A stretch of 64,000 bases of DNA, from positions 57,033-121,032 of the forward strand of contig JAUNHC010000015.1 in NCBI GenBank assembly GCA_030524175.1, read 5' to 3'. The position numbers and the translations under genes were made by a program. Positions 48,637-64,000 of the stretch are shown here, in pieces; the stretch's first letter is position 1; each line of letters begins with the position of its first letter. The notes under the pieces were generated by a model. That model had not been told where the DNA came from. It did not search any database and saw nothing but the letters and a program-made list of their open reading frames with translations. The stretch is from Eubacteriales bacterium (GTDB taxonomy: Bacteria; Bacillota; Clostridia; Lachnospirales; Lachnospiraceae).

Positions 48637-51600
48637 ATGACGAAACTAAAAAACACAAAGAAGGGCATGGCAAAAAAAGCGCTGAGCATCTCACTCGTCG
48701 CAGCAATGCTGGCTACTTCTAATGTTCCGGTTTGGGCTGCGGAGGATTTGTTCTCTGATGGCAGCGCAGTAGAAGCTGAAGTAGATACACCGTTTACAGA
48801 GGAAACTCCTGATACTGCTTTATTTAGTTCAGAAGCTCCGGCTGAAGAGGCACCGGTGACAGAAGAAGCTCCAGTAGAAGATGTTGTGTCAGATGCAGCT
48901 GTTGTCGCTGCTGCTGATACTACAGAGGATGTCAATCTCTTAGACTATGAAGTAAAAGATTTAAAACTGAACAACATTGGAGAATGGGGGACAGATACGG
49001 TTTCTGTAGCAGGATCCATCCAATCAAATGGTAATGATGTCCAAAATTTACAGTATGTTTGGCTTGCTGATGGATTACAGGCTGACGGAGCTGATGCAGC
49101 AGATACTGCTAGTGGGAATATAAGTACGATTACATACACTCCTACTAAAGCGGATTATAATAAGACCTTATCATTGAGAATTTATCAGACTGCTCCTAAT
49201 GGTATGGTATTGTTCAGTAAAACAATTGCCGGCAGCATTGTTCAGGCACAGGATATCAGCACAGATTTTAACGCTGCACTTACTCTTGCTTCCACTGCGC
49301 CCTCTTACAATGGAACCGAGCAGAAGCCAACACCTAGCAATACCTATAGTGTGACAAAAGACGGACTGAGCCTTGATGGATCAATGATCGATTGGCATTA
49401 TGAAACAGAAGGTAATGATTTTACTAACGTGACAGAGAAGGATATTACAGTTTACGGTACACTTACCGGAACAAATGATTCAGCTTCTAATGCGTATGGT
49501 TATACTGCCAGAACTGCCGAAGCTACTTATCAGATTGCTCCGTTAGAGCTTTCTTCATCTAATTTGAAACCATCCATGGTAACTACTTCCGTAGAATATA
49601 CCGGAGATGTTCAGACCTTTGGGAAAAAAGATGTGAAGCTAGAAGTTCTGGTCAATGCCAATACTAATATGAAGACTGACATTACTGCCGCTCTTAAGGC
49701 TGACGCTACATTCAGTGGTGCAGCGGCGGATAAATCTGTTGGTACAGACTACAAACTTGATTCGTCTACTGACTGGGCAGGTGCTTTTGACACCTCTGAT
49801 GCTGCAAATGAAATCCTTAAGAACTTTGAGGTTCCAAGCTCGCTTGTAGTTAATGTAGAGAACACATATGCCATTACTAAACGGAATTTGAGCAACTGTA
49901 CAGGTACAATTACAGAGCAGCTTCTCAGTACTTTTAGAGGTAATCCTGACGCCACAGTTAGTGCAGCAGATATTACATTAACAGATAAAAGCGGCAGAAC
50001 ATTTACTCTTGCCGCATTAGATACAGCAGGCCAGATTACCATCCAGGTTAACAATGCTGTTTTTGCTGCCGCAAATGCAAACAAAACAGGGGTTGTACAG
50101 AATGCTGTTACTGTCAGCTATGCAGCAGATTCTGATAATGTGACCGGAAGCCTTAATCTGCCCATGACATTGGTTACAAGGTCTTTAGGTACTGTTACCG
50201 TTACAAAGGATGGTAGTGCCAACACCGTCGTGCCTACATCAAAAGCTGATGCAGGTAACCTGACTGTTCCTTATATCGGCAAGGCATATTCCTTAACCGG
50301 AACAACCGGAACTTTAAATAGTTTGAATATTGCTGGCGCAGATCCTTCAGAATATGATGTTGCCTATAATGACAATGTAAATGCTGGTATTGTAGAAGTT
50401 ACCATTACTGGTAAAAGCAGCCTTGCAGGCAGCACAAAGAAAGTATACTTTACCATTGCACAGCATGAAGTTAACAGTGGTTTCACTGTAAAGAACGGGG
50501 TGACCGTAAATCCGGCCAACAACAGCAACGCTGCCTTATATAAAGACGCGCTGGGTATGGAATTTAAAACACGTTTAACCGGCGCTACTTCTGACACTAC
50601 TCTTAAAGAAGGTACAGATTATACAGTTAAGTATTATTACACCAATGGTAATACTTATGCAGATGAAGCTGCAGTAAAAGCTGATTTGGCTACAAATGTT
50701 GCCGGAAAATATGTTACTGCAATAGCAACTCCAGTTAAAAATGGAAACTTTAAGCTTGCTACCGTTGCATTTATTTATGACAGTGCTGTAATCGCCAAGA
50801 AATCCATTAGTAATGTCACTATTACTGTTGAAAAAGATTCCTATACCTTTACAGGCAAAGAAATTGTTCCAAACATTGTTGTAAAAGACGGAACAGTTAC
50901 ACTGGACAAGGGTGTGGATTATAATCTGAAATTAAAGGACAACATTGATGTGGGCACTGCAACAATAACTGTTGTACCTACAGCTGGCAGCGACTATGCT
51001 GGTGACACAGCCGCAACAACTACCTTCAAAATCGAAGCTGCAAAAGCAGAAGATGTAAAAGCCACTTTAAGTGCAACCGCAAGTGCTGTGGCTACAACAG
51101 GAAAAGATAATACCTTTAATTACACAGGCAGACAGGTGAAACCATCTGTATCTAAAGTTGAGTTAAATGGTGTAGATGTTACAAAATATTTCGATATCAC
51201 CTACATTACCTATGGTGAGAACGTAAACGCCGGAAAAGAAATGGGAAGTGTTGTGATCTCCCCGAAAGCAGATGTAAAGAACTTCACAGGAACTAAAACC
51301 CACCTTTTCAACATCCAGGGTAAAGAATTAGACGGTGTGCTGAAACTTTACAAAAACGATAAGACACAGGTTGTAACAACGGATCACGTTGCTTTGACAA
51401 AAACCGGCGGCGATATCTATAACTTCTACTATGACGGCAGCGAGCAGACCTTTGCAGATGCGAAGTTTACACCGGCAGCTGCTACCAATGCTAAAGAAGG
51501 CACAGATTATGAAATTAAATATATCAACAACAAAGACGCAGGCATTGCTTTTGCAGCTGTTGTAGCCAAAGGAAATTATGAAGCGAACATTTTTAACTCT

Positions 51601-52818
51601 CCATCAACACCTAGCAAGTGGGATGATTTCGGCTATAAAGTAGTAGACGGAACGTTGATGACAACAGCTGGTAAGATTATTGAGAAAAATATTGTGGACA
51701 TTTATGCCTTTAATATTACCCCGTCCATATTTACAGCCAAAAATATCACTGTTGCCAATGGCAGCTACGCAGGTGGTATGCCTGTAAAACCATCAGTAAC
51801 TATCAGCGTAAACGGAAAGACTTTGGAAGAAGGTACTGATTACGCGCTGAAACTTACAGCTATAGACGGTACTTCCACACCGGACACATACGTAAATGTT
51901 ACAACCGATAAACCTTATATAGTTAGGGTAATCCCGATGGGCGGCTATGGCTTTGATGCAGTCAACGGACCAGATAGCTACACATGGGGCATCGACAAGA
52001 AAAACCTGGAAGACTGCTTCGTTAAAGTGACCAGGAACAAAGACGAGCTTGATCTTGTTGTCATGAACGGCAATGTTACTGAAACAAAAGAAGTATTTGA
52101 CGTAAAAGACAATGGCGATGGCACCGCTACCGTATCTGTAGTAAATGACGGTAAGAACTATACAGGTTCCACTTCTGTCACCATTATCGACCCGACCGAA
52201 GAGGGAACTGTAGGACCGGCAATGATTGATAAAGTCGTTGTTAATGGAAACAAAGCAACAGTAGTACTTTCCGGAGAAGCAGAAAATGCAGACGGGTATG
52301 ACTATGTTATTGCAACACAGGAAGATTACAAAAATGGCCGTGTAGCCATTAACAAAAACCTGCTTACTACAACAACGGACTTCCGTTATGTAGACAGAGG
52401 TGTATATTATGCATACTGCCACGCATGGAAACGTGACGAAAACGGCAAGAAGGTATTTGGAGATTGGTCAAACCTGTACAGATTCGAAGTAAGTGCAGTT
52501 ACTCCGGATCAGCCGGTCATTACCAGCGTTAAGGTTACCGGCAAAACTGTAAAGGTTACCTATACAAAATCTGACGATGCAACAGGCTATGATTTAGTAC
52601 TGGGCACTGCAGTTAAGAAAGTATACGGTGAAAATCGTCCGGTTAATTATGGTAAACTTGTTAAGAAGGTAACCAAGGGTGATACTGTAACTGCTACCTT
52701 CACCAATGTACCAAAGGGAACCTATTATGCAGGACTTCACGCTTACAATAGAACAAGCATGAACAACACCAAAGTCTTCAGTGTATGGTCCAATACAAAG
52801 AAAGTAACAGTTAAATAA
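48637..52818 (+). CDS. Large repeat-containing surface protein, S-layer-like
   Basis: A 1393-residue exported protein. AAAGGGG precedes the ATG; the signal peptide (basic 1-15, hydrophobic to about 30) ends near VWAAE. After an acidic Ala/Glu/Pro-rich linker come repeated beta-sandwich units with the marks YTGKEIVPN, YTGRQVKPS, YDGSEQTF, YAGGMPVKPS and YNGTEQKPT and an EGTDY turn, reminiscent of YDG/MBG-type bacterial repeats. The last 200 residues are two fibronectin-like copies (about 1193-1286 and 1290-1393), each with Y-x-A and KVFxxWSN. No LPxTG motif or membrane anchor is seen. The strong promoter and size suggest an abundant cell-surface protein. Confidence 0.7.
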   Translation: MTKLKNTKKGMAKKALSISLVAAMLATSNVPVWAAEDLFSDGSAVEAEVDTPFTEETPDTALFSSEAPAEEAPVTEEAPVEDVVSDAAVVAAADTTEDVNLLDYEVKDLKLNNIGEWGTDTVSVAGSIQSNGNDVQNLQYVWLADGLQADGADAADTASGNISTITYTPTKADYNKTLSLRIYQTAPNGMVLFSKTIAGSIVQAQDISTDFNAALTLASTAPSYNGTEQKPTPSNTYSVTKDGLSLDGSMIDWHYETEGNDFTNVTEKDITVYGTLTGTNDSASNAYGYTARTAEATYQIAPLELSSSNLKPSMVTTSVEYTGDVQTFGKKDVKLEVLVNANTNMKTDITAALKADATFSGAAADKSVGTDYKLDSSTDWAGAFDTSDAANEILKNFEVPSSLVVNVENTYAITKRNLSNCTGTITEQLLSTFRGNPDATVSAADITLTDKSGRTFTLAALDTAGQITIQVNNAVFAAANANKTGVVQNAVTVSYAADSDNVTGSLNLPMTLVTRSLGTVTVTKDGSANTVVPTSKADAGNLTVPYIGKAYSLTGTTGTLNSLNIAGADPSEYDVAYNDNVNAGIVEVTITGKSSLAGSTKKVYFTIAQHEVNSGFTVKNGVTVNPANNSNAALYKDALGMEFKTRLTGATSDTTLKEGTDYTVKYYYTNGNTYADEAAVKADLATNVAGKYVTAIATPVKNGNFKLATVAFIYDSAVIAKKSISNVTITVEKDSYTFTGKEIVPNIVVKDGTVTLDKGVDYNLKLKDNIDVGTATITVVPTAGSDYAGDTAATTTFKIEAAKAEDVKATLSATASAVATTGKDNTFNYTGRQVKPSVSKVELNGVDVTKYFDITYITYGENVNAGKEMGSVVISPKADVKNFTGTKTHLFNIQGKELDGVLKLYKNDKTQVVTTDHVALTKTGGDIYNFYYDGSEQTFADAKFTPAAATNAKEGTDYEIKYINNKDAGIAFAAVVAKGNYEANIFNSPSTPSKWDDFGYKVVDGTLMTTAGKIIEKNIVDIYAFNITPSIFTAKNITVANGSYAGGMPVKPSVTISVNGKTLEEGTDYALKLTAIDGTSTPDTYVNVTTDKPYIVRVIPMGGYGFDAVNGPDSYTWGIDKKNLEDCFVKVTRNKDELDLVVMNGNVTETKEVFDVKDNGDGTATVSVVNDGKNYTGSTSVTIIDPTEEGTVGPAMIDKVVVNGNKATVVLSGEAENADGYDYVIATQEDYKNGRVAINKNLLTTTTDFRYVDRGVYYAYCHAWKRDENGKKVFGDWSNLYRFEVSAVTPDQPVITSVKVTGKTVKVTYTKSDDATGYDLVLGTAVKKVYGENRPVNYGKLVKKVTKGDTVTATFTNVPKGTYYAGLHAYNRTSMNNTKVFSVWSNTKKVTVK

Positions 52819-52853: not shown

Positions 52854-52883
52854 AAAGAATCCCGGCTTAGGTCGGGATTCTTT
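52854..52883 (+). terminator. Terminator after the surface protein gene
   Basis: AAAGAATCCCG (52854-52864) and CGGGATTCTTT (52873-52883) form an 11-bp stem. The short T stretch suggests incomplete termination, and no clear separate promoter follows before the next gene. Confidence 0.75.
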
Positions 52884-52919: not shown

Positions 52920-53174
52920 ATGGCAGTTGCAGCATTGGTTTTAGGCATCGTTTCCATTGTGTTTGCAGTGATGGGACTTGGACTTCCACTTGGATTTATC
53001 TGTGGTGTCGTAGGAATTGTTATGGGAATCATGGGAAAAAAAGATATTCGCAATGCCGGAATGGCAAAGGCCGGATTTATCTGTTCTATCGTTGGGACAG
53101 TGCTGTCGGTTTTTGCTTTTGTTGCATGTTCAGCTTGTGTGGGAACGTTCGGTCTTGCTGGAAGTTTATTATAA
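52920..53174 (+). CDS. Small DUF4190-like membrane protein
   Basis: An 84-residue protein with GGAGGGGG 7 nt before the ATG. Two hydrophobic helices (about 3-40 with glycine breaks, and 52-75) flank a GKKDIRNAGMAKAG loop, which is the DUF4190 pattern (small membrane proteins with a repeated helix-GxxA-helix core). Function unknown. It lies between the surface protein and the signalling operon, separated from each by a hairpin. Confidence 0.7.
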   Translation: MAVAALVLGIVSIVFAVMGLGLPLGFICGVVGIVMGIMGKKDIRNAGMAKAGFICSIVGTVLSVFAFVACSACVGTFGLAGSLL

Positions 53175-53258: not shown

Positions 53259-54047
53259 ATGTACATTGGAAGAAATGATATTGCTGTACCGGTTTATGGG
53301 CTTATGGTGTTGACTGGAATAGTGGCAGGAGTAATTGTAGGTATCCGGCTGGTGAAAAAGGACGGCCTGTCAGTGGATGATTTCACCCTGCTGGCTGCCT
53401 ATACCGTTTTAGGGGGATTTACAGGTGCAAAGTTTCTATACCTGTGGGTCAGCAGGGACGCCATTCAATGGGAACAGATGTTAAATTTGTCCTATTTCCG
53501 GGCTGTAATGTCCGGCGGTTTTGTTTTTTACGGGGGACTGTTCGGCGGTTTCCTGGGATTGGCTTCAGGGGCGTGGATTCATGGAATCCAGGCACGTAGA
53601 TATCTGTATGTGTGTATTCCAATCCTGCCCCTTGCTCATGCTTTTGGGCGGCTCGGCTGCGGTGCAGCAGGGTGCTGTTACGGAATCCCCTACCAGGGGC
53701 CTTTTCAGATTGTATACCGGCACGCGGCCGCTGCCCCAGTGGGTATACCGCTGTTTCCGGTCCAATATCTGGAAGCGTTTATAGAATTTTTGCTGGCAGC
53801 AGTTATTTTTCGGATGGTTTCCCAAAAAGGGGGGACCTGCCGGGGAGTTGAACTTTATCTGCTAGTGTATAGTATGACAAGGTTTTTATTAGAATTTTTG
53901 CGTTACGACAGGGTAGAACGGGGGTCTTGGAAAAATCTTTCCACCTCACAGTGGATTAGCCTAGGTATATTTATAGCTGCCGCGCTTTACATACTTTATA
54001 TAGAAGTAAAAAGTTCTGCAGGGGAAAGGGGAAAAAGGTATGGTTGA
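53259..54047 (+). CDS. Lgt-family membrane enzyme with Cys-rich variant active site
   Basis: A 262-residue polytopic protein related to prolipoprotein diacylglyceryl transferase, which adds diacylglycerol to lipobox cysteines. Lgt marks: N-terminal Arg/Asp-rich GIRLVKKDGLSVDDF, VFYGGLFGG, the signature region HAFGRLGCGAAGCCYG (H127, R131, C134, C139, C140), and the C-terminal EFLRYDRVERG. The usual HGG is YGG here and three cysteines lie in the signature, so it is a divergent paralogue and its activity is uncertain. Its stop overlaps the first kinase gene by 8 nt, which ties it to the phosphosignalling operon. Confidence 0.75.
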   Translation: MYIGRNDIAVPVYGLMVLTGIVAGVIVGIRLVKKDGLSVDDFTLLAAYTVLGGFTGAKFLYLWVSRDAIQWEQMLNLSYFRAVMSGGFVFYGGLFGGFLGLASGAWIHGIQARRYLYVCIPILPLAHAFGRLGCGAAGCCYGIPYQGPFQIVYRHAAAAPVGIPLFPVQYLEAFIEFLLAAVIFRMVSQKGGTCRGVELYLLVYSMTRFLLEFLRYDRVERGSWKNLSTSQWISLGIFIAAALYILYIEVKSSAGERGKRYG

Positions 54048-55836
54048 CCCCGACAGAATCTGCATGGGATGCATGAGGGAATTAAAAAAAGGAGAAACTT
54101 GCCCTTATTGCGGCTTTTCCATAAAGAAATATGCACAATGCAGAAGCAGCCGTGCTTTACCCGCCAGGACAATTCTGGGCGGACTATATCTGATAGGAAA
54201 AGTGCTGGGAGAAGGCGGTTTTGGCATCACGTATATTGCTCTGGACCTAAACCGGCAAATCCCCGTGGCTGTCAAAGAATATTTTCCCTCAGGACTGTCC
54301 TCAAGGGACACTTCAGGAGAAGGAACGGGAGTTGTATCCCTGCCAGGGGGCGATAAGAAACAATTTTACAAATCTGGCCTGAAAGGATTTCAAAAAGAGG
54401 CTGAAAGTCTTGTGAAACTTCGCAGTCTAACGGGCATCGTTTCTGTAGAAAATTTCTTTTACGAAAACAATACCGCCTACCTTGTGATGGAATATATCAA
54501 CGGGAAAACGCTGAAGCAGTATCTTCAGGAAAGGAGAACCCCTATGGGGGAAAAAGAGACTCTTGCTCTGATGCGTCCCATACTGAATGCCCTTGAAGAA
54601 ATCCACAAAATCGGAGTCATACACCGGGATATCAGCCCTGAAAACATTATGCTTGTAGGTGACGGAAGGGTCTATCTGGTGGATTTTGGAGCGGCAAGGT
54701 TTTCAGCAGGTGAAGAATCCCAAAATTTGACAGTACTTTTAAAACACGGATATGCTCCTGTGGAACAATATCAGGGGAATAGCAGGCAGGGTCCTTGGAC
54801 TGATATCTATGCCGTATGCGCCACCATGTACAGGATGCTTTCCGGCAGAATTCCGGATGAAGCCATTGACCGCATGGTCGGCGACAAAATGGATTCTCTG
54901 GAAAGTTTGGCACAGTTGGAGCGGGCGATTCAGGTCAGCCGTCAAACGTCACAGGTAATCCGAAAGGGGCTTTCTGTAAACAGGTCCGATCGTTATCAGA
55001 CAGTGAAGCAGTTGAAAGATGACCTATATAAGGGGGATGAACAGCACGAAGCAGGTGAATCAGGACAAAATGCTTCATCTCCCCTCTCCATAAAAGCTTC
55101 CAGTATAGGAGAAAACGGAACTATGGAACAGACAAGGATGGCAGGCGCCCTGATCCTTGTAATCCTTTTCCTTATAATGCTTGTGTTAAGCTTCCTATCA
55201 GAGGATAGTAATACCATATCCGAGACGGAAATCCATCCCACAGAGTATTCCATCCTCAGTCCGGCAAAGCCAGAAACTGAAAGGGCACAACCGGAAGCGG
55301 CGGACTCCGTAGCAGCAGACAGCTCTTCCCCCATCCCTGAACCGCTGAATTCCAGTTCTGAGCCGGTGGCCCCCGTCCTGGACCTCATTTCCCCAGCAGA
55401 CATAGTTCCCGGTAAAAAAATACCAGTATCCTCTGTGAATGCAGCCGTGACCAAAGGAACCTTTGAGGAACTCCCCTCCCCCGACCAGGCTTTTGACGGG
55501 GACAAAGATACAAGCTGGACAGGGCTTGCCGGGGAGGGCGGTGCCCTTTTATGGGTGGGGTTCGACAAGGCCTATGATGTAAAATATTTGTCCTTGTGTC
55601 TGGGCGGCAGGGACAACGGCGGCCTTTATTCTGACTATAGCCGTCCCCGAAAACTAGAAATAACGCTGGGAAGCAGTTTTTTTCCGGTGGAGTTACCGGA
55701 CTCTGACCAGGATATCTGGATGGAAATCACACCGCCGGTCCGCTGCTCTGTATTATGTATAGAGATTCTGGAAACCTACAAAGGTGAACAGTGGGATAAC
55801 ATCTGCATTTCCGAGATTAGTGTTTTTGGAAGCTGA
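54040..55836 (+). CDS. Transmembrane Ser/Thr kinase with zinc ribbon and extracellular discoidin-like domain
   Basis: A 598-residue protein. Order: CxxC...CxxC zinc ribbon (C8, C11, C21, C24), kinase domain with glycine loop GEGGFGIT (57-64), Lys79, HRD (195-197, in IHRDISPEN), DFG (215-217) and YAPVEQY at the activation segment, a membrane helix (about 367-386), a Ser/Pro/Glu linker and an extracytoplasmic domain (about 455-598) that looks like a discoidin/NADase-type sandwich (AFDGDKDTSW). All catalytic residues are intact. It overlaps the Lgt-like gene by 8 nt. The outer domain suggests sensing of a carbohydrate or wall ligand, which would set phosphorylation of the FHA partners encoded downstream. 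Confidence 0.88.
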   Translation: MVDPDRICMGCMRELKKGETCPYCGFSIKKYAQCRSSRALPARTILGGLYLIGKVLGEGGFGITYIALDLNRQIPVAVKEYFPSGLSSRDTSGEGTGVVSLPGGDKKQFYKSGLKGFQKEAESLVKLRSLTGIVSVENFFYENNTAYLVMEYINGKTLKQYLQERRTPMGEKETLALMRPILNALEEIHKIGVIHRDISPENIMLVGDGRVYLVDFGAARFSAGEESQNLTVLLKHGYAPVEQYQGNSRQGPWTDIYAVCATMYRMLSGRIPDEAIDRMVGDKMDSLESLAQLERAIQVSRQTSQVIRKGLSVNRSDRYQTVKQLKDDLYKGDEQHEAGESGQNASSPLSIKASSIGENGTMEQTRMAGALILVILFLIMLVLSFLSEDSNTISETEIHPTEYSILSPAKPETERAQPEAADSVAADSSSPIPEPLNSSSEPVAPVLDLISPADIVPGKKIPVSSVNAAVTKGTFEELPSPDQAFDGDKDTSWTGLAGEGGALLWVGFDKAYDVKYLSLCLGGRDNGGLYSDYSRPRKLEITLGSSFFPVELPDSDQDIWMEITPPVRCSVLCIEILETYKGEQWDNICISEISVFGS

Positions 55837-55900
55837 CAGCCCGGTACTCTGCACAATATCAGAAAAGATTGTTCAAAATCCATAGAAGAGGAGAAGTAAT

Positions 55901-56737
55901 ATGAATGAGAAAAAGAAATATCACCTGCCCCTAGAATACCGAATTGGAATGATCAGCGCATTTTCTTTAATGCTTTTGTCTGTTATCCTTCCGTTATTCT
56001 CGGTTAAGGCAGCAAAACAATCCATGAGTGTGTCTCTGTTAAGCTTTTTTAGCAAAAGCAAACTTGAGCAGCTGGACTTATTATCTCTGGATCAAGCCAC
56101 AGCAGTAATCCTGAATACTATCCGGTGTTTTATCATAATTTTTGCCCTGTTGGCGATCCTGGGGATTGTCTGCTACACCCTGGAGTTTACAACCCGGTGG
56201 AAAGAGGGAATCATTATCACTTTGATACTGACACCTTGGTCTATTTTTTCAGGTATCGGGATTACCGTGCTTATGGCCAGGATTGCCACATCAGCAACTC
56301 CCGGAGGCACGATTTCCCTGGGAGTCGGTACCATCTTTGGCTGGCTGGCTTGTGGATACGCCTTCTTCCGACCTTTGGTTTACCTTTGCATGTACAAGCC
56401 GGAGAAAGAATCTGAGGAAAGATCAGGTGCCGTAAAGGGACAGTTGAGAGGTGTATCCGGGATTTATGCCGGGCAGGTGATTCCTCTTGAAGATGGAGAA
56501 AAGCTTGTACTTGGCAGGGGAGCAGAGGAATGCAACCTGATTGTTGACGCACCCAAGATCAGCCGAAGACATTGTGAGATTACATATCATGGGCAGAGTG
56601 GCAGCTTTACATTGAAAGATTTTTCATCAAACGGGACTTATAAAAGTAACGGAGAAAAATACCGGCCTGAGGAAGAATTGACACCAGGGTCAACCTTTTT
56701 CCTGGGAAATAAAGAAAATGGCTTTATGGTAAAATAG
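55901..56737 (+). CDS. Membrane protein with C-terminal FHA domain
   Basis: A 278-residue protein. Four membrane helices (about 15-33, 73-93, 102-124, 139-163) anchor a cytoplasmic FHA domain (about 185-278) with the phosphothreonine-binding marks GR (205-206), SRRH (221-224) and SSNGT (242-246). FHA domains bind phosphothreonine, so it is a probable target or reader of the kinases in this operon. The gene lies 64 nt after the first kinase, with AGAGGAG before the ATG. The membrane domain is not recognised. Confidence 0.85.
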   Translation: MNEKKKYHLPLEYRIGMISAFSLMLLSVILPLFSVKAAKQSMSVSLLSFFSKSKLEQLDLLSLDQATAVILNTIRCFIIIFALLAILGIVCYTLEFTTRWKEGIIITLILTPWSIFSGIGITVLMARIATSATPGGTISLGVGTIFGWLACGYAFFRPLVYLCMYKPEKESEERSGAVKGQLRGVSGIYAGQVIPLEDGEKLVLGRGAEECNLIVDAPKISRRHCEITYHGQSGSFTLKDFSSNGTYKSNGEKYRPEEELTPGSTFFLGNKENGFMVK

Positions 56738-56763
56738 CTGGACGGCGGAGAGGCAGATAGCAC

Positions 56764-57498
56764 ATGGAAATCACGTATGCCAGTATCAATGAAATCGGGA
56801 AACGTCCCTGCCAGGAGGATACCGTAGGCAGTTGTATCTATGGAAAAGAGGCATTGTTTGCAGTGGCGGACGGCTTGGGCGGACATATGTCAGGTGACCT
56901 TGCTTCCAGGAAAATGATAGAACAGGTTCTGGCCGGATTCCATGAGAAATGCGACCCTGAGGTTTTCTTCCCCGAAGTTTTTGCTGAAGGGAACAGACAG
57001 CTTTGTCTGCTTCAGGATGCACACCATACACCAAATGGGATGAAAACCACCCTGGCCTGTGCGGTAATAAAAGAAGACACCATTTACGGAGCATATGCAG
57101 GAGATTCCCGGATATATATTTTTGAGAAAAATAAAATGGTATTTCGAACCCTTGACCATAGTGTCCCACAGATGCTTGTCAATGCAGGCGAGCTGGATGA
57201 GAAGAAAATCCGCAGGCATCCCGACCGAAACCGGCTTCTAAGGGTCCTGGGAGATCGTGACAGGGAAAGTTCTCCCCAAGAGATACCGCCGTACTATATG
57301 AGAAAAAGTGCAGCTATTTTGCTCTGCACAGATGGGTTTTGGGAGAATATTCTTGAGAAGGAAATGGAAAAGACACTGAAAACTGCAAAAGACCCGGAGG
57401 AATGGTTATCAAGGATGAAGAAAATCGTAAAGCGGAGAGGAAAAATGAAAAAACAGGACAACTACTCTGCAGTGTGTATTTGGGTTTTCCTAAAGTAA
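56764..57498 (+). CDS. PP2C-type Ser/Thr protein phosphatase
   Basis: A 244-residue soluble phosphatase with the usual PP2C motifs: QED (D19), VADGLGGH (D36, G37), GDSR (D114), LCTDG (D190) and DNYSA (D232), which bind the two metal ions. Length fits the minimal bacterial PP2C (PrpC type). It lies between the FHA membrane protein and the second kinase, with gaps of 26 and 15 nt, so it is cotranscribed. It would dephosphorylate the kinases or their FHA-bound partners. Confidence 0.92.
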   Translation: MEITYASINEIGKRPCQEDTVGSCIYGKEALFAVADGLGGHMSGDLASRKMIEQVLAGFHEKCDPEVFFPEVFAEGNRQLCLLQDAHHTPNGMKTTLACAVIKEDTIYGAYAGDSRIYIFEKNKMVFRTLDHSVPQMLVNAGELDEKKIRRHPDRNRLLRVLGDRDRESSPQEIPPYYMRKSAAILLCTDGFWENILEKEMEKTLKTAKDPEEWLSRMKKIVKRRGKMKKQDNYSAVCIWVFLK

Positions 57499-57513
57499 GG
57501 GAGGCGTTTATTT

Positions 57514-58704
57514 ATGAACCCTAATCGTCTGTGCCCGGGGTGCATGAAAGAGGTTCAGCAGCCGGACAAAACCTGCCCTAACTGCGGATATCTGGACAGG
57601 GCATACCAACAGACCAGAAACTGCCGGGTTCTCCCGCCATATACGATTCTTGCCGGGAGATACATGCTTGGTAAGACTCTGGGTGAAGGTGGTTTCGGCA
57701 TTACTTATCTTGCCATGGATCTCAAACAGCAGGAAACGGTGGCAATTAAGGAGTACTTCCCCGTAGGCCTTGCAGCAAGGGATACTATGGACGGAAATTC
57801 GGAACTATCCTGTGTTACAGGAAATGAAAAGAGACAGTATTATAAACATGGGCTGGAAAACTTTGCAAAGGAAGCGAATAACCTGATGAAATTCCGTTCC
57901 CTTCCCGGGGTGGTTTCTGTGAAAAACTTTTTTTACCAGAATAAAACGGCCTATCTGGTTATGGAATACATTGACGGAATCAGCCTTAAACAATATCTGA
58001 ATAAGAGGAATAAACCCATTGCTGAAAAAAATGTACTGAATGTGATGCGCCCTGTTATATGTGCTCTTGCTAAAATACATAGAGCCGGGATGATCCACCG
58101 TGACATCAGCCCCGAAAACATCATGCTGGCACGTGACGGCAGGGTGCTTCTCATCGATTTTGGGGCTGCCCGCAGCATAACCGGAGTGGAAACACAATGT
58201 TTGACCATTATCCTGAAACATGGTTACGCTCCCATAGAACAATACCAGACAAAGGGAAGACAGGGGCCATGGACAGATGTATATGCCCTATGTGCAACTA
58301 TGTATTCGGCACTTTCCGGACTTTCACCGGAAGAGGCTGTGGAACGTATGGATCATGACCGGATGGTGCCGTTGAAACATGTGCGGTTTGCTGCTCCGCT
58401 GCCGCAAATCTCTCCAAAGACTTCCGACATTATAGAAAAAGGATTGTCCATACAGGCTCAGGACAGGTATCAGGATGCAGAGGAGTTACGGAAAGCCCTC
58501 TTTCGGGAAACCGCAGCGCCGATTTCGGAAAAGGAAAAAGAGATTCCCCCGGCTGCTGTGCTGTCTCAGGAGCCACCGCTGAAATCAGGCGGGAATTACA
58601 CAGCGAATGAAAAAATCTTTTTGGTGGTATTTCTGGTAATTGGGATTGCTACTGCCTTTGTACTGACAGCGTATCTGTTTGGTCAGCTGTTAGCTCTTCT
58701 ATAA
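57514..58704 (+). CDS. Zinc-ribbon transmembrane Ser/Thr kinase, second copy
   Basis: A 396-residue protein with the same start as kinase 1: CxxC...CxxC ribbon (C7, C10, C21, C24), GEGGFGIT loop (57-64), Lys79, IHRDISPEN, DFG and YAPIEQY. Catalytic positions align residue for residue with kinase 1. After a short linker a single membrane helix (about 368-390) ends the protein, with no extracellular sensor domain. It is therefore a reduced paralogue, perhaps a partner that depends on the sensing kinase. GGAGGCG precedes the ATG. Confidence 0.9.
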   Translation: MNPNRLCPGCMKEVQQPDKTCPNCGYLDRAYQQTRNCRVLPPYTILAGRYMLGKTLGEGGFGITYLAMDLKQQETVAIKEYFPVGLAARDTMDGNSELSCVTGNEKRQYYKHGLENFAKEANNLMKFRSLPGVVSVKNFFYQNKTAYLVMEYIDGISLKQYLNKRNKPIAEKNVLNVMRPVICALAKIHRAGMIHRDISPENIMLARDGRVLLIDFGAARSITGVETQCLTIILKHGYAPIEQYQTKGRQGPWTDVYALCATMYSALSGLSPEEAVERMDHDRMVPLKHVRFAAPLPQISPKTSDIIEKGLSIQAQDRYQDAEELRKALFRETAAPISEKEKEIPPAAVLSQEPPLKSGGNYTANEKIFLVVFLVIGIATAFVLTAYLFGQLLALL

Positions 58705-58792
58705 CGATTGGAACCGTTTGCCGCTGTTCACAGTTATAGGCTGTGTATAATGGCAACTGATTAGAATATAAACAGATAAAAGTGGGATGATT

Positions 58793-59341
58793 ATGGCAAT
58801 TATAAAATGTGAGCAGGGACATTTTTACGATAGCATCAAATATAAAAAATGTCCTTTCTGTAATAAGGCAGAGATGGATATTCCGGAGACTGTCTGGCAG
58901 GTATCTGATCCATCCGGCAAAATCCAGAAGGTGTCTGTAGTGAACAGCAGCAGAGCTGTGGACGAGGAGATTACGATAGGGGTATTTTCTCCCAAAAAGG
59001 GTAATGACTATGTAGTCGGATGGCTGGTGTGCATAAAGGGGCCGGACAAAGGCAGAGACTACCGGCTCCACCAGGGATTCAACCGAGTGGGAAGAGATTA
59101 TGGGAATGATGTTGTTCTGGAAAATGACAGGATGGTATCACGCAACTCCCACTGCAGTGTTATTTATGAGGATAAAACAAATTATTTTTATATCTGCCCG
59201 GAAGAAGGCACCATTACCTATCTTAAAGGGGAATTTCTGCAGGAACCAGTCAGGCTGTACTCTCACGATGTTATTGAGCTTGGAGGCAGCTTGCTGGAGT
59301 TTGTTGCATTTTGTGAAGGGAGCAGAACGTGGGAAAGATAA
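58793..59341 (+). CDS. Zinc-ribbon FHA protein, first copy
   Basis: A 182-residue protein starting at ATG 58793. The N-terminal metal site has C6-x3-H10...C20-x2-C23 (CEQGHFYDSIKYKKCPFC), followed by a linker and an FHA domain (about 75-175) with GRDYGND (GR at 100-101) and SRNSH (116-120). The later conserved Asn-Gly is not evident, so phosphothreonine binding may be altered. Its stop lies inside the start of the vWA-FHA gene (13-nt overlap). It shares the Cys/His pattern exactly with the second copy at 61845. Confidence 0.82.
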   Translation: MAIIKCEQGHFYDSIKYKKCPFCNKAEMDIPETVWQVSDPSGKIQKVSVVNSSRAVDEEITIGVFSPKKGNDYVVGWLVCIKGPDKGRDYRLHQGFNRVGRDYGNDVVLENDRMVSRNSHCSVIYEDKTNYFYICPEEGTITYLKGEFLQEPVRLYSHDVIELGGSLLEFVAFCEGSRTWER

Positions 59342-61050
59342 AAAAGAAGCATTATATGATTGTGGCTGTTTTATTTGTACTCCTTGTAATTTGTCCGTCT
59401 TTTACAGTGGAGGCAGATGTTGCCGCAGATCTGAGGGTAGAACAGATTGTTTCAAAAATGCCCGATTTGAAGGCATATCTTGCAGGAACTGATGTGGCAG
59501 CTCTGGATTTAAACAAAATAGAAGCATCCCTGGACGGGGAAGCGCTGGAGGTAAAAAACTTACAGAGATTCGTGGAGTCGGGAGAAGGGATACGGTATTT
59601 TTTACTTCTTGATATCTCATCGTCCATTAGCGAATCTGATTTTCAAGGTTTAAAAGAAGCGGTTCTGGATTTTGCGGAGCGCCTGAGGGAGAAAGATGAA
59701 GCATACCTCCTGACCTTTGGGGACAGTGTAAATATTTTGTGGACCCATGAAGAAGGGAGTGCGTGTCTGAAAGAGCGGCTTGATTTCCTCGTAAACGACA
59801 ACCAAAATACGCAGCTTTATGAGGCACTGATTCAGGCGTCTGACCTGTGTGCCCAATATGGGGATATGATGCGTAAAAGTGCAGTCGTCCTCACTGACGG
59901 CCTGGATGATATTAAGGGAAAGTCAACAAAGGAAGAAGCTATGTCCAAAATCCTGAAAAACGGACTTCCTGTTTATGGAATTGCCATTGGAGACGGAGAT
60001 AAGGAAGGGATTGACCGGTTCGGGGAACTGATACGAGGCAGCAGCGGCAGGCTGTATCTGACTCAAAAGGAAAATGTCGTAAAAACTTTGCGGAAGCTGG
60101 ATAAGAACGTGAAAAACGCCTGGATTTTATCTATGAAAGGAAACACAAATCTGGTCGCCAAGGGTGAACAGGAGATTACCCTTCAGTTCAGTCAGTACAA
60201 TTTAACGAAAAATATTCAGTCAGGCTTTTATCAATGGTATCCTGACAACTTGGCCCCGTGGATTAAAGAGGCCCGGCAGACCGAAAAGAATCAGCTCCGG
60301 ATTATTTTTTCTGAGTCTGTGGAGGGGATTGACAATGCGGGAAACTTTCAGTTAAAAAATGCAGAAGGAAAATCTTTTGTGCCCAAGTGGGCATCCCCCA
60401 CAGGCGATACCGAAGTAGAGCTTACATTTGAAGACGATTTTTACCAGGGTGAGTATTCTCTGGAATGCAGTAATATCCATGATATTTCTATGGAAAAAAA
60501 TGAAGTCCGTGAACCCTGTTCCCTCACACTGGAGGGAGAAAAGGAATCCAAAATAAAAGACTTCCTGCGTGCCTGGGGATGGCTGATGGCATTAATTGGA
60601 GTCATTTTAGCCGCTGCGCTTCTGCTTTTTATTTATCTAAGGATACGGAAGCACAAAGGGATTGTTTTGGTAGACGATAAATTTACTCTTGCATCTAACC
60701 TGCAGAAGGATGTACGGCAAGTTGTGGAGTTGGAAGAAAAGGAAGGCATCCATCTGCGTCTCTATATTTCCACCGGAAAATCCCAGGCTATTGAGCTGGA
60801 GCGGGATTTATACGACAGTGCAATTGTAGGACGTTCCGATATCTGTGAAGTATGTGTGAAGGATACAAAAATGTCCAAACAACATTTCGCCCTGGAATAC
60901 CAGGAAGGTTATGTTTATCTGTCAGACCTGGAAAGCACAAACGGAACAATGCTTAACGGGATTGCCGTCACTGGCCGTCACCGGCTTGCAAAAGGAGATA
61001 AAATAACTGCCGGGAATACAACAGTATGTGTGAAATGGGAGGATACATAA
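59329..61050 (+). CDS. vWA-FHA transmembrane protein
   Basis: A 573-residue protein from GTG 59329 with AAGGGAG 7 nt upstream. Signal peptide (about 8-25, ending VEADV), then an extracytoplasmic vWA domain (about 88-260) with an intact MIDAS motif: DISSS (95-99), T161 and D190 (VLTDGLDD). A beta-rich region (about 300-400) and one membrane helix (about 416-437) lead to a cytoplasmic FHA domain (about 495-570) with GR (501-502), SKQH (516-519) and STNGT (536-540). It can bind a ligand outside through a metal ion and a phosphothreonine partner inside, which makes it the likely bridge between envelope and kinases. Confidence 0.88.
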   Translation: MGKIKKKHYMIVAVLFVLLVICPSFTVEADVAADLRVEQIVSKMPDLKAYLAGTDVAALDLNKIEASLDGEALEVKNLQRFVESGEGIRYFLLLDISSSISESDFQGLKEAVLDFAERLREKDEAYLLTFGDSVNILWTHEEGSACLKERLDFLVNDNQNTQLYEALIQASDLCAQYGDMMRKSAVVLTDGLDDIKGKSTKEEAMSKILKNGLPVYGIAIGDGDKEGIDRFGELIRGSSGRLYLTQKENVVKTLRKLDKNVKNAWILSMKGNTNLVAKGEQEITLQFSQYNLTKNIQSGFYQWYPDNLAPWIKEARQTEKNQLRIIFSESVEGIDNAGNFQLKNAEGKSFVPKWASPTGDTEVELTFEDDFYQGEYSLECSNIHDISMEKNEVREPCSLTLEGEKESKIKDFLRAWGWLMALIGVILAAALLLFIYLRIRKHKGIVLVDDKFTLASNLQKDVRQVVELEEKEGIHLRLYISTGKSQAIELERDLYDSAIVGRSDICEVCVKDTKMSKQHFALEYQEGYVYLSDLESTNGTMLNGIAVTGRHRLAKGDKITAGNTTVCVKWEDT

Positions 61051-61054
61051 AGGC

Positions 61055-61840
61055 ATGAAAACAACACGCATCTTTTCGGAGATGGAAATCCCAAGTGTAT
61101 ACGTCTGTGGGGCATCCATGCAGGGCGACAGGGAATATCAGCAGGATGCCATGATGTACAAAAGAAGCGGAAACGGCGTATTGGCCGTTGTCTGCGATGG
61201 CATGGGAGGTCTTGAGGCTGGTGAACGTGCCAGTATGGAGGCCGTCCGGATCATGGAAGAAAAATTTGACCAGCTTGCCCCTGAGGCAGACCTTCCGGAA
61301 TTTTTCAAACAATCTGCTGTTGCAATGGACAGTGTAATTGCCGGGCTGTCAGACAAGGATGGACGGCAAATCCAGGCAGGAACAACAATCACCGCTGTAT
61401 ACACAAGAAAAAACGAATTATACTGGATGTCCGTGGGGGATAGTAAGCTATACTTGTTCCGGGACGGTGAGTTGGAGCAGGTGACAAAGCCGCATAATTA
61501 CAGGACATGGATGAACCACCAGGCTTTATCCCGGGAAAGAGACACTATCATCAGTGGAGCCAGGCAGGAGGCCTTAGTCAGTTACCTGGGAATGGACGGT
61601 ATACGCCTGTTGGATTACAATGAGAAGCCTTTTCTGCTGCGCAAGGGTGACATCGCATTACTTTGTACGGACGGCCTTTATAAAGCAATCCCGGAGGAGG
61701 GTATCCGGCAGATACTGGACGCCTGCCGGGAGGAATTTGACATTACAGCAGAGACACTGATAGACACGGTACAGGAATATGGCATAAAGCCTTTGGATAA
61801 TTGTACTGCGGTCTTGTTAAAATATCTTGAGGAGGATTAA
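61055..61840 (+). CDS. PP2C-type Ser/Thr protein phosphatase, second copy
   Basis: A 261-residue phosphatase starting 4 nt after the vWA-FHA gene. Motifs: QQD (D31), VVCDGMGG (D48, G49), GDSK (D129), LCTDG (D206) and DNCTA (D248). Complete metal site. It is only distantly similar to the first PP2C of the operon. Its end is followed 4 nt later by the second zinc-ribbon FHA gene. Two phosphatases with three kinases in one operon suggest separate targets. Confidence 0.92.
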   Translation: MKTTRIFSEMEIPSVYVCGASMQGDREYQQDAMMYKRSGNGVLAVVCDGMGGLEAGERASMEAVRIMEEKFDQLAPEADLPEFFKQSAVAMDSVIAGLSDKDGRQIQAGTTITAVYTRKNELYWMSVGDSKLYLFRDGELEQVTKPHNYRTWMNHQALSRERDTIISGARQEALVSYLGMDGIRLLDYNEKPFLLRKGDIALLCTDGLYKAIPEEGIRQILDACREEFDITAETLIDTVQEYGIKPLDNCTAVLLKYLEED

Positions 61841-61844
61841 GGGA

Positions 61845-62441
61845 ATGAAATTAAGGAAATGTGAAAATGGACATTTTTATGACGAAGAAAAATATGCATT
61901 CTGTCCACACTGCCGTAAGGCAGGCTCTGGGGCGCAGGAGGATTTTACCATATCCATGCCGTCCGGTATCCAGATAGATGATGATGCGAAGACCGAGCCA
62001 CTTACAGATGAAATTATCCCCTCTCTGAAAAAAGAGGTACAAGAAATCCAAAAAGAAGAAACAAATTTGACATTAGGCTTTTACGCCCAGAAAATGGGGA
62101 TGGAGCCAGTGGTAGGCTGGCTCGTATGTGTGGAAGGGGAACAAAAGGGAAGAAGCTTTGAACTTCATGCGGGAAGGAATTTTATCGGAAGAAGTCCTGA
62201 GATGGACATCGTGCTGGCAGGAGATATCGCGGTATCAAGGAATAAACATGCGATCATCATCTATGAGGCAAGAAATAAAATGTTCCTGGCACAGGCCGGT
62301 GAATCAAGGGAATTATTTTATGTAAATGACGAAGTTGTACTTTCTAATGTAAAAATAAATCCTTATGATGCAGTATTGATCGGAAGCACCAAGCTGCTGT
62401 TTATACCCTTCTGCAGTGATAAGTTTACATGGGATGCATAA
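61845..62441 (+). CDS. Zinc-ribbon FHA protein, second copy
   Basis: A 198-residue protein starting at ATG 61845 (MKLRKCENGH), with GGAGG upstream inside the phosphatase gene end. The metal site C6, H10, C20, C23 has the same spacing as in the protein at 58793. A longer acidic linker (30-80) precedes the FHA domain (about 90-190) with GRSPEMD (115-116 GR) and SRNKH (131-135). Both copies end with a similar hydrophobic strand and a TW motif (SRTW, KFTW). A duplicated adapter that could carry phosphothreonine recognition to a zinc-ribbon-binding partner. Confidence 0.85.
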   Translation: MKLRKCENGHFYDEEKYAFCPHCRKAGSGAQEDFTISMPSGIQIDDDAKTEPLTDEIIPSLKKEVQEIQKEETNLTLGFYAQKMGMEPVVGWLVCVEGEQKGRSFELHAGRNFIGRSPEMDIVLAGDIAVSRNKHAIIIYEARNKMFLAQAGESRELFYVNDEVVLSNVKINPYDAVLIGSTKLLFIPFCSDKFTWDA

Positions 62442-62524
62442 GATGTCAGCTTCCCATAGGCCAGTTTCAAAAAAATGTATAAAGGTGCTTTTGATAAGTC
62501 TGAGTGGAAAGGAGGATTCCAGCC

Positions 62525-64000
62525 ATGAAATTATGTTTAGGCTGCATGGAAGAAATACAGGATAACGTAACCATCTGCCCATACTGCGGATATAAAGAAG
62601 ATACCCCTGTGGATGAGGCCTATTACCTGTCAGGCGGCACACTCCTGGCCCAGCGGTACATTGTAGGAAAGGTGCTGGGATATGGTGGCTTTGGAATCAC
62701 CTATATCGGATGGGATGTGTTGCTTAAAAGAAAAGTAGCAATTAAAGAATATTTCCCCAGCGATTTTGTCACCAGGGGCGTGGAAAGTACAAAAATCACT
62801 ATTTATTCAGGCGATGCGTATACCCAGTTCCAGGCTGGCCTGACCAGATTTATCTCAGAAGCAAAAAGTCTGGCACAGTTTAACCATACAGATGGAATCG
62901 TGCATATTTACGACTGTATCCAGGAAAACGGTACAGGTTATATTATTATGGAATTTCTCAATGGGCAGACTATTAAGGAAATTCTTAAATTCAAAAACAA
63001 ATATTCTTATGAGGAAGCGGAAGCAGTTATTCTTCATGTCCTGGATGCACTTGAAGAAGTACATAAAACAGGAATTATTCACCGTGACATAGCCCCTGAT
63101 AATCTTTTCATTACCAAAGATGGTGAAATAAAGCTTATCGATTTTGGCGCGGCCAGGTATGCTGCATCCTCGAAATCAAAAAGTCTTTCTGTGATTTTAA
63201 AGCCGGGATACGCACCTGAAGAACAGTACAGAGCCCACGGAGAACAGGGTCCATGGACGGATGTTTATGGCGTTGGTGCCACCTTTTACAGGATGATAAC
63301 AGGGGTGCGCCCGGAGGAAGCGATTGAGAGACTCATTGACGGTCATATCCAGAGCCCTTCCAGTCTGGGGATTGATATTCCGCTGCAGAAAGAAACTGCC
63401 CTGATGAAAAGCCTCAGTGTAAAAAAAGAGGGCCGGTTTCAGACAGTAGCAGAGTTTAAAGAGGCTCTATTGGGAACTGCAGATGAGAATTCTTCAGCTA
63501 CGGGTATCGAAAAACCAGGCCCTCCGGCATATCCCTCCGGAAAATGGCTCGTCCTCGGGGCGAGCGTCTTTCTGGCTGTGACGGTTTTTGCCTTTTTGCT
63601 CGGAAGGAATGCACCTGTACAGGAAACCTCATTGCCTGGAAACCAGGATAACAAATCTGTTGTGGAATCTACTCCGATGCTGAATATACAGGAACCATCC
63701 GGCTCGGCCAGAATCCCCGTGGCCACTCCTTCGGAGACAGCCCGCACATCGGAAGTTTTTCCCACTTCGGATCTTGTGCAAATACCGGAGACGTCCCCGA
63801 CACCCGAGCCGACCCCAATGCCAGCAATATCTTCCGCACCTGAACCAACCATAATACCGGAGATATCTCTCACACCCGCACCAACCCCAACACCAGAGGC
63901 ATCTCCTGCACCAGAGCCGACCCCAACACCGGAGGCATCTTCCACACCCGCACCAACAACAAATCCGAAGGAATATCCTACGCCAGAGCCGACCACAAAA
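62525..64000 (+). CDS. Zinc-ribbon transmembrane Ser/Thr kinase, third copy (partial, runs off the window)
   Basis: A 492-residue open frame without a stop, starting at ATG 62525 (GGAGG 9 nt upstream). Ribbon cysteines C4, C7, C18, C21; glycine loop GYGGFGIT (52-59), Lys74, IHRDIAPDN (HRD 186-188), DFG (206-208), YAPEEQY in the activation segment; one membrane helix (about 341-360). The extracellular remainder is Pro/Thr/Glu-rich with repeats of PTPEPTP, PEASxxPAP and PEPTPTPEAS, a stalk likely to span the wall. The C-terminal sensor, if any, is beyond the window. It is the third kinase of the operon. Confidence 0.9.
   Translation, partial: MKLCLGCMEEIQDNVTICPYCGYKEDTPVDEAYYLSGGTLLAQRYIVGKVLGYGGFGITYIGWDVLLKRKVAIKEYFPSDFVTRGVESTKITIYSGDAYTQFQAGLTRFISEAKSLAQFNHTDGIVHIYDCIQENGTGYIIMEFLNGQTIKEILKFKNKYSYEEAEAVILHVLDALEEVHKTGIIHRDIAPDNLFITKDGEIKLIDFGAARYAASSKSKSLSVILKPGYAPEEQYRAHGEQGPWTDVYGVGATFYRMITGVRPEEAIERLIDGHIQSPSSLGIDIPLQKETALMKSLSVKKEGRFQTVAEFKEALLGTADENSSATGIEKPGPPAYPSGKWLVLGASVFLAVTVFAFLLGRNAPVQETSLPGNQDNKSVVESTPMLNIQEPSGSARIPVATPSETARTSEVFPTSDLVQIPETSPTPEPTPMPAISSAPEPTIIPEISLTPAPTPTPEASPAPEPTPTPEASSTPAPTTNPKEYPTPEPTTK

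Follow-up and report, generated by a model that had tools for sequence, protein, structure and literature searches.

The right-hand end of the window, which is the whole 64,000-nucleotide stretch of DNA analysed here, carries a cluster of ten genes at 53259-64000, all on the + strand by their open reading frame (ORF) coordinates (Table 1). The cluster encodes an Lgt paralogue, three zinc-ribbon Ser/Thr kinases (K1 to K3), two PP2C phosphatases (a and b) and four FHA proteins. One FHA protein also has a vWA domain predicted to be extracytoplasmic, and is joined to it through a transmembrane (TM) helix (vWA-TM-FHA, the hub); two others combine a zinc ribbon with an FHA domain (zr-FHA1 and zr-FHA2, the adaptors) and the fourth is a multi-TM protein. 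On balance, the cluster probably forms a single Ser/Thr phospho-relay, complete in itself, that works at the cell surface.

In gene order the spacing consists of an 8-nt overlap, gaps of 64, 26, 15 and 82 nt, a 13-nt overlap, a gap of 4 nt, a 14-nt overlap between PP2C b and zr-FHA2 (or a 4-nt gap with the second start at 61845) and finally a gap of 62 nt. The largest gap is 82 nt, and the short overlaps number two or three according to the start codon chosen. The original prediction had described nine adjacent genes with gaps under 100 nt, several of them overlapping; the adjacency and the spacing are borne out, but its own list of genes adds up to ten. Pfam scans place every domain that it named (LGT, kinase, PP2C, FHA and vWA) where it had put them, and the zinc-ribbon tags it proposed are recognizable as a CxxC...CxxC motif in all three kinases and a CxxGH...CPxC motif in two of the four FHA proteins. 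Judged by these motifs, the kinase and FHA ribbons presumably bind zinc. The kinase motifs VA[VI]K, HRD and DFG are intact in K1 to K3 (VAVK in K1), as are the DGxGG, GDS, TDG and DN motifs in both phosphatases, which suggests that the writers and erasers should be active.

Table 1. Features of the cluster and the gene preceding it
Feature	Position	Strand	Pfam match (E-value) and remarks
DUF4190 small membrane protein	52920-53174	+	PF13828 6e-10
Lgt paralogue	53259-54047	+	PF01790 (LGT) 2.4e-36
Kinase K1: zinc ribbon, active-type kinase, TM, discoidin (NADase-type glycan-binding) ectodomain	54040-55836	+	PF00069 (Pkinase) 2.4e-34
Multi-TM FHA protein	55901-56737	+	PF00498 (FHA) 8.2e-14
PP2C phosphatase a	56764-57498	+	PF13672 (PP2C_2) 7.9e-13; metal-site motifs intact
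Kinase K2: zinc ribbon, active-type kinase	57514-58704	+	PF00069 1.2e-34
zr-FHA1 adaptor	58787-59341	+	PF00498 1e-8
vWA-TM-FHA hub	59329-61050	+	PF00092 (VWA) 1.5e-11, PF00498 4.2e-15
PP2C phosphatase b	61055-61840	+	PF13672 2.6e-15; motifs intact
zr-FHA2 adaptor	61845-62441 (TTG start 61827 also open)	+	PF00498 3e-5, PF16697 3.4e-10 (scan of 61827-62441)
Kinase K3, cut by contig end: zinc ribbon, active-type kinase, TM	62504-64000	+	PF00069 9.5e-34

The discoidin-type domain of K1 (PF25302 2.4e-9; NF047619 61.5 bits against a cut-off of 38) recurs at nine distinct loci, which include the window and both other Clostridia families with related genes. K2 has a single TM segment close to its C-terminus and, by eye, almost no ectodomain. 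The multi-TM FHA protein has three TM segments by simple hydropathy and the canonical FHA motifs GR, SRRH and SSNGT. Both adaptors carry a threonine motif in the linker between ribbon and FHA domain, TIGVF in zr-FHA1 and TLGFY in the disordered linker of zr-FHA2, and both have an FHA domain without the NG loop, that of zr-FHA2 being GarA-like. K3 has P/T-rich repeats, with tandem repeats at 63829-63998. The last base of the window is also the last base of the contig (121032 bases) and falls within both K3 and these repeats, so nothing further to the right can be read; the final 151 bases of the contig have only chance-level matches on the other contigs of the assembly, which comprises 5.95 Mb and is 90.7% complete.

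The Lgt paralogue scores below the cut-off in all five NCBIfam Lgt models that it matches. It reads GRLGCGAAGCCYG where the other Lgt of the same genome has GRWGNFFN, and the Lgt of the closest relative (locus L059) has a similar Cys-rich form, GRIGCFLASCCWG. Only this GR.G region distinguishes the two Lgt proteins of the genome; the His motif was rejected as a diagnostic difference because the other Lgt also has Tyr at that position. A small protein similar to the DUF4190 protein precedes Lgt in L059 (by eye), so the DUF4190 gene may belong to the cluster and may even be its first gene. Directly 5′ of the island lies a gene for a 1393-residue protein with a signal-like N-terminus (48637-52818). 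Between it and the DUF4190 gene an 11-bp perfect inverted repeat (52854-52883), found by eye and not returned by the scan, is a possible transcription boundary. The scan itself gave 13 promoter-like sites against 17.5 in shuffled sequences and 18 terminator-like sites against 12.4, and was not used.

Gene order and kinase sensors in relatives

Named genomes searched with a vWA-FHA profile yielded 43 loci, comprising 37 relatives (L059-L095) and six loci from other phyla (L096-L101) that match in the FHA part only. Loci were annotated by mechanical ORF calls and by hidden Markov models built on these same loci, with a Pfam check for chosen proteins only, and the stretch covered per relative varies from about 4 to 22 kb. 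The 61 vWA-FHA entries include split genes (L078, L170), two entries in L178 and near-identical pairs; duplicate or fragmentary loci (L032, L035, L036, L037, L039 and L040) and unlabelled ORFs of fewer than 130 amino acids were left out of the neighbour counts. The recurring order is PP2C > zr-FHA > vWA-TM-FHA > (kinase-FHA) > PP2C > zr-FHA; this series is flanked by additional kinases and by an FHA protein of the multi-TM or DUF4234 kind. A single-FHA gene stands immediately upstream of the vWA-FHA gene in 47 of 59 testable cases (among 61 vWA-FHA ORFs), a PP2C gene lies two positions upstream in 36 of 55, and a PP2C gene follows within the next two genes in 44 of 59. The kinase-FHA fusion is absent from the window and from several relatives (e.g., L059 and L060), and the window has K2 between PP2C a and zr-FHA1. 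Kinases number one to six per entry, except in five entries near EssC that have none in the stretch covered. The original prediction had made its case depend on a conserved gene order in homologous loci; the order is kept, and the set thus behaves as one system.

Of 396 genomes sampled from the family, 22 carry the module; they are spread over 20 of 280 genera, a patchy distribution that suggests transfer or loss. A class-wide sample has it in 10 of 393 genomes, the window genome included. Related cores also occur in two further Clostridia families and in two Coriobacteriia records (L074 and L078). All nine cores outside the family have the order PP2C > FHA > PP2C > zr-FHA > vWA-FHA, with a kinase gene just upstream in seven; the other two have a discoidin ORF alone, close to or at the contig start. 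Identity between the vWA-FHA proteins of the different families and of the Coriobacteriia records is only about 25-36%. In Blautia sp. MSJ-9, IS607-type recombinase-like and TnpB-like ORFs (by eye) lie inside the island, between the vWA-FHA and PP2C genes (L061:11787-13572).

Among 71 island kinases the median pairwise identity is 42% in the kinase domains and 14% in the ectodomains. A Pfam scan covered 65 of the 71 ectodomains, and within the best 25 of the 48 families matched, in sets that can overlap, PASTA accounts for 22 of the 65, SBP_bac_8 for 11, SBP_bac_1 for six and Sel1 for three, with two each for LRR, WG, beta-lactamase-like and lectin domains. Of 40 kinase pairs sharing a locus, eight have kinase domains more than 70% identical and the other 32 are no closer than 50%; six of the eight close pairs have ectodomains less than 20% identical. 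The most extreme pair, at L034, has kinase domains 96% and ectodomains 12.5% identical, and its DNA is 90% identical over about 1180 bases with no long alignment beyond. The corresponding kinase and ectodomain values are 87% and 14%, 85% and 32%, and 75% and 19% for the three pairs of L069; 78% and 17%, 77% and 67%, and 72% and 17% for those of L073; and 72% and 15% for the pair of L060. At L069, L073 and L060 the DNA identity falters already inside the kinase domain and the break is not always clean. The neighbouring kinases concerned lie at L034:1836-6237, L069:12959-20189, L073:14793-21030 and L060:14163-20213. One of the eight close pairs is a plain duplication by its sequence, but the similar kinase halves with mostly unrelated ectodomains look like recombinational sensor swapping. 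The sensor domains (PASTA, solute-binding, lectin, discoidin) thus look as if they were exchangeable parts on a constant intracellular machinery.

Accessory genes were chosen as same-strand neighbours no more than 160 nt away, so some may not belong, and 68 of 93 such ORFs were scanned. Among the first 25 of 52 Pfam families these 68 include five proteins with choline-binding repeats and two with CHAP domains, and an M15 carboxypeptidase occurs in seven distinct loci. The envelope role that had been proposed for the cluster is supported by these genes and by the types of kinase ectodomain.

Linker threonines and the proposed relay

A motif derived post hoc, T[TIVLM][GSA]x[FYL], occurs in the linker of 75 of the 94 different zr-FHA proteins, where shuffling of the linkers would predict 1.5. 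In 68 of the 75 it sits 20-26 residues before the FHA domain, and its surroundings are acidic, with Asp, Glu and Lys the commonest residues just upstream. A looser pattern with the threonine at a fixed position is matched by 89 of 103 proteins (22.3 expected), and in an alignment of 26 sequences the linker threonine is nearly invariant (at least 90%). The AlphaFold2 model of zr-FHA2 has a confident zinc ribbon and FHA domain, with a predicted local distance difference test score (pLDDT) below 50 for residues 32-38 and 40-84, which include the motif threonine. On these scores, the idea that TIGxF is a mere beta-strand of the FHA fold is disfavoured. The vWA-FHA proteins, for their part, match the canonical NG loop [ST]xNG[TS] in 53 of 60 cases, and the residues G, R, S, H, N and G are invariant in 26 aligned sequences. 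The hub model (pLDDT 86.4) has an N-terminal helix, a vWA domain with a beta-sandwich, a TM helix at 408-442, a disordered segment at 442-469 and a canonical FHA domain; alignments show that the residues of the metal-ion-dependent adhesion site are present in the vWA domain.

In the proposed relay, membrane kinases with exchangeable outer domains would sense different envelope or extracellular cues, as the domain types suggest, and would place a phosphate on the conserved linker threonine of both zr-FHA adaptors, in a segment predicted to be disordered. The two PP2C phosphatases, whose active sites are intact, would remove the mark. Phosphorylated adaptors may then dock on, or leave, membrane proteins with canonical phosphothreonine-binding FHA domains. 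Candidate docking partners are the hub and the multi-TM FHA protein; in genomes that have one, an FHA-FHA-ABC exporter or an EssC with an FHA domain would be a further candidate. The simplest reading would be that the zr-FHA protein carries the phospho-mark and the membrane FHA domains read it, in a switch whose logic may by analogy resemble that of GarA/OdhI and of the archaeal ArnA-ArnB pair. The output would be envelope transport through a client that differs by lineage, the client of the window genome being out of view.

A broader proposal is put forward more tentatively, as plausible though not quite probable. The islands may represent a separate and widespread class of surface receptors, in which a fixed core with an ArnAB-like switch (two PP2C phosphatases, zr-FHA adaptors, the vWA-TM-FHA hub and a kinase) serves a set of receptor kinases that exchange their ectodomains through recombination, and opens various FHA-tagged transporters. 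If this is true, gut Clostridia sense their surface through a plug-in array of receptor kinases on one shared phosphorylation switch, and many uncharacterised kinases gain a testable substrate site. It would also link bacterial zinc-ribbon-FHA and vWA proteins to the archaeal ArnA-ArnB switch, and offer a reason for the FHA domains found on some exporters and type VII ATPases. No published account of an autonomous island of this kind, of the ArnA/ArnB-like pair, of the linker threonine motif or of the swapped sensors was found in a search that mostly excluded subscription journals. Every part of the island belongs to known kinds. The novelty originally suggested for the signalling system holds in part only: kinases, phosphatases and FHA proteins have already been published at type VII loci (PMC11217815).

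Linked transporters and alternative explanations

Among the 61 vWA-FHA entries, 18 have an FHA-FHA-ABC exporter gene in the stretch covered (including L070 and L071, which are near-identical), nine have genes of the type VII secretion system (T7SS) and 34 have neither. An FHA-ABC tail (L104) beside the T7SS of B. luti falls outside L064 and is not among the 18. The nine T7SS-linked entries consist of four full islands, of which L063, L064 and L075 are beside EssC/YukD or WXG100 genes and L183 next to WXG100 genes alone, plus five divergent vWA-FHA genes in the vicinity of EssC (L041, L043, L046, L047 and L087). EssC is found in 103 of 396 family genomes (94 above the family cut-off) and the exporter in 22 of 396. 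By tests that ignore phylogeny, EssC is not significantly more frequent with the module (7/22) than without it (96/374, p=0.62), and the exporter is enriched (5/22 with the module, 17/374 without, p=0.005; 4/21 and p=0.02 when the window genome is left out). Thus the output varies: the exporter is the commonest linked client seen and T7SS a minority client.

In the window itself, no EssC, WXG100 or YukD-like gene is present among the ten genes by Pfam, no genome-wide search for WXG100 and YukD having been made, and no FHA-FHA-ABC exporter gene is found among the ten before the contig ends at K3. Elsewhere in the genome an exporter homologue (L102:9631-12156) with 33% identity is split by an in-frame stop and stands beside unrelated-looking genes. 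The same genome has a DUF6382-FHA protein (L044:5707-10586) whose gene neighbours resemble, by eye, those that surround the Tad-pilus genes located after the island in Blautia sp. MSJ-9 (L036). At L059 the operon continues with kinases as far as a DUF2752 gene, beyond which lie genes read as a conjugative element. On a different contig of that relative's genome (L141:6969-17440) a 1492-residue EssC-like ATPase, with no FHA domain labelled, has small WXG100-like ORFs and a possible JAB-type protein as neighbours (by eye), as in a divergent type VII-like locus.

The island could chiefly be a control module of T7SS, with EssC and WXG100 genes just beyond the end of the contig or in a part that the assembly lacks. 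The islands and divergent vWA-FHA genes beside type VII genes agree with this, as do an EssC above the cut-off in 14 of 37 genomes reached through named loci, a set without a matched control, and the kinases, PPM phosphatases and FHA proteins that the available text of PMC11217815 describes at type VII loci. Yet EssC does not track the module, none of the nine outside-family cores has type VII genes in the stretch covered, and the window assembly has only a 115-bit FtsK-like match and no EssC, an absence that is not final because the assembly is incomplete and the contig ends at K3. T7SS is therefore taken as a client in some genomes and not as the defining output; as the sole output it is disfavoured by the co-occurrence counts, and the explanation as a whole is unlikely. 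The secretion role originally suggested thus finds support in the four islands and five divergent genes near type VII genes, and is weakened by the lack of association with EssC and by the assembly's lack of that gene. Control of an Rv1747-like FHA-FHA-ABC exporter that moves an envelope lipid or glycan is rather doubtful as the island's chief function. It would account for the 18 linked entries, the linkage at both f25 loci, the genome-wide enrichment and the two FHA domains N-terminal to the ABC part, and it has a precedent in Rv1747, which is in an operon with its positive modulator PknF according to the accessible part of PMC3908365. However, the exporter is absent from 43 of the 61 entries in the stretch covered, and the sole match in the window genome is the distant, interrupted homologue on another contig.

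Anti-phage defence by kinases of the PD-T4-6/MAD6 type is very improbable. All three kinases match the PADLOC models PD-T4-6 and mad6 (best 1.5e-52), but these matches cover the kinase domains only, and the scores in the NCBIfam MADS6/MAD6 model (138.3, 138.2 and 123.2 bits) are far below its cut-off of 460. In addition, no recognised effector is found among the ten genes, and the accessory genes, like the ectodomains, are of types associated with the envelope. A chance grouping of generic signalling genes that do not work together would fit the patchy distribution, but is hardly credible given an order kept across families and Coriobacteriia in spite of the low identity of the vWA-FHA proteins.

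Several observations weigh against the relay and its proposed switch. Both threonine patterns were chosen from the very sequences in which they were counted, and 14 of 103 zr-FHA proteins lack even the looser one. The canonical NG loop is found in none of 94 zr-FHA domains, so these domains may not bind phosphothreonine. The five best Foldseek matches of the adaptor FHA domain are GarA chains (6i2p_E, 6.8e-8, 33% identity), but the FHA domains of FhaA and MDC1 match nearly as well, OdhI is close too, and the best of five PDB profile matches is the Chlamydia FHA protein 3gqs (4.6e-6), ahead of GarA 7rj3 (2.6e-5). For the hub, the best Foldseek match is the ArnAB complex 8s05 (1.4e-12), with the ArnB paralogue 5a8j tenth (1.2e-9); the TM-scores are low (0.27 and 0.39) and other vWA-plus-sandwich proteins (inter-alpha-inhibitor and integrin folds) score nearly as well, so that the match would indicate a fold class and is no proof of kinship. 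Moreover, ArnB is a soluble regulator, whereas the island vWA domain is predicted outside. As to the output, the statistics for the exporter take no account of phylogeny, the 34 entries with neither client gene include the window, and no exporter or secretion gene is labelled in L059; the client is thus unproven.

Comparison with known systems

TerY-type triads of kinase, PP2C phosphatase and vWA protein are linked to the tellurium-resistance genes TerD, TerC and TerZ. The resemblance to such triads that was first suggested finds no support from these partners: no Ter genes were seen among the ten genes or in the first 25 of 52 accessory Pfam families, no genome-wide search for them having been made. 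With the PrkC/PknB-Stp system the islands share a PP2C partner and the PASTA ectodomain, which is found on 22 of the 65 kinases scanned among the families considered. The window genome, however, has a separate PP2C-kinase pair elsewhere (L103), and its island kinases carry zinc ribbons and score 150, 150.3 and 174.6 bits in the PASTA kinase model NF033483, below the cut-off of 450 (the ectodomain of K3 being cut off).

The Rv1747-PknF system of M. tuberculosis has in common with the island relatives an FHA-FHA-ABC exporter beside Ser/Thr kinases; it differs in being a two-gene operon, as given in the text available (PMC3908365), and no exporter is in view in the window. Kinases, PPM phosphatases, FHA proteins and the vWA protein TscE have been described at T7SSc-T7SSj loci (Garrett, Higginson and Palmer 2024; PMC11217815). 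TscE is predicted to be cytosolic without a TM segment, and the accessible portion of that account mentions no FHA domain for it (PMC11217815). The island likewise groups a vWA protein with kinases, PPM phosphatases and FHA proteins, but its vWA protein has both a TM helix and an FHA domain, the island in the window shows no EssC, WXG100 or YukD, and 52 of the 61 related entries have no T7SS genes in the stretch covered.

The FHA domain of GarA and OdhI recognises an N-terminal phosphothreonine. PMC2784874, as far as its text was available, and PDB titles accord with a role of the N-terminal threonine. The island adaptors share the FHA fold and a threonine motif before it (NTTSVY in the L034 adaptor), and differ in the added zinc ribbon, in the NG loop missing from all 94 and in their place within a kinase/phosphatase island.

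The archaellum module ArnA-ArnB of Sulfolobus is a complex tuned by Ser/Thr kinases and a phosphatase. ArnA consists of a zinc finger, a disordered linker and an FHA domain, and the kinase ArnC shifts ArnAB from a loose to a tight state; both statements follow the parts available of PMC6509490 and PMC12852372. The likeness lies in a protein with zinc ribbon, disordered linker and FHA domain encoded beside a vWA protein (the zr-FHA1 gene overlaps that of the hub) and in a partner with a predicted vWA domain and beta-sandwich, a match of fold class only. ArnB has a C-terminal helical bundle as phospho-target and no anchor. The island partner is, in contrast, a membrane protein with its TM helix at 408-442, its vWA domain predicted outside and its own C-terminal FHA domain inside, so that only the logic may be shared. 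The phosphatase is of the PP2C type here and PP2A there, the island kinases are receptor-like and the island hosts are bacteria.

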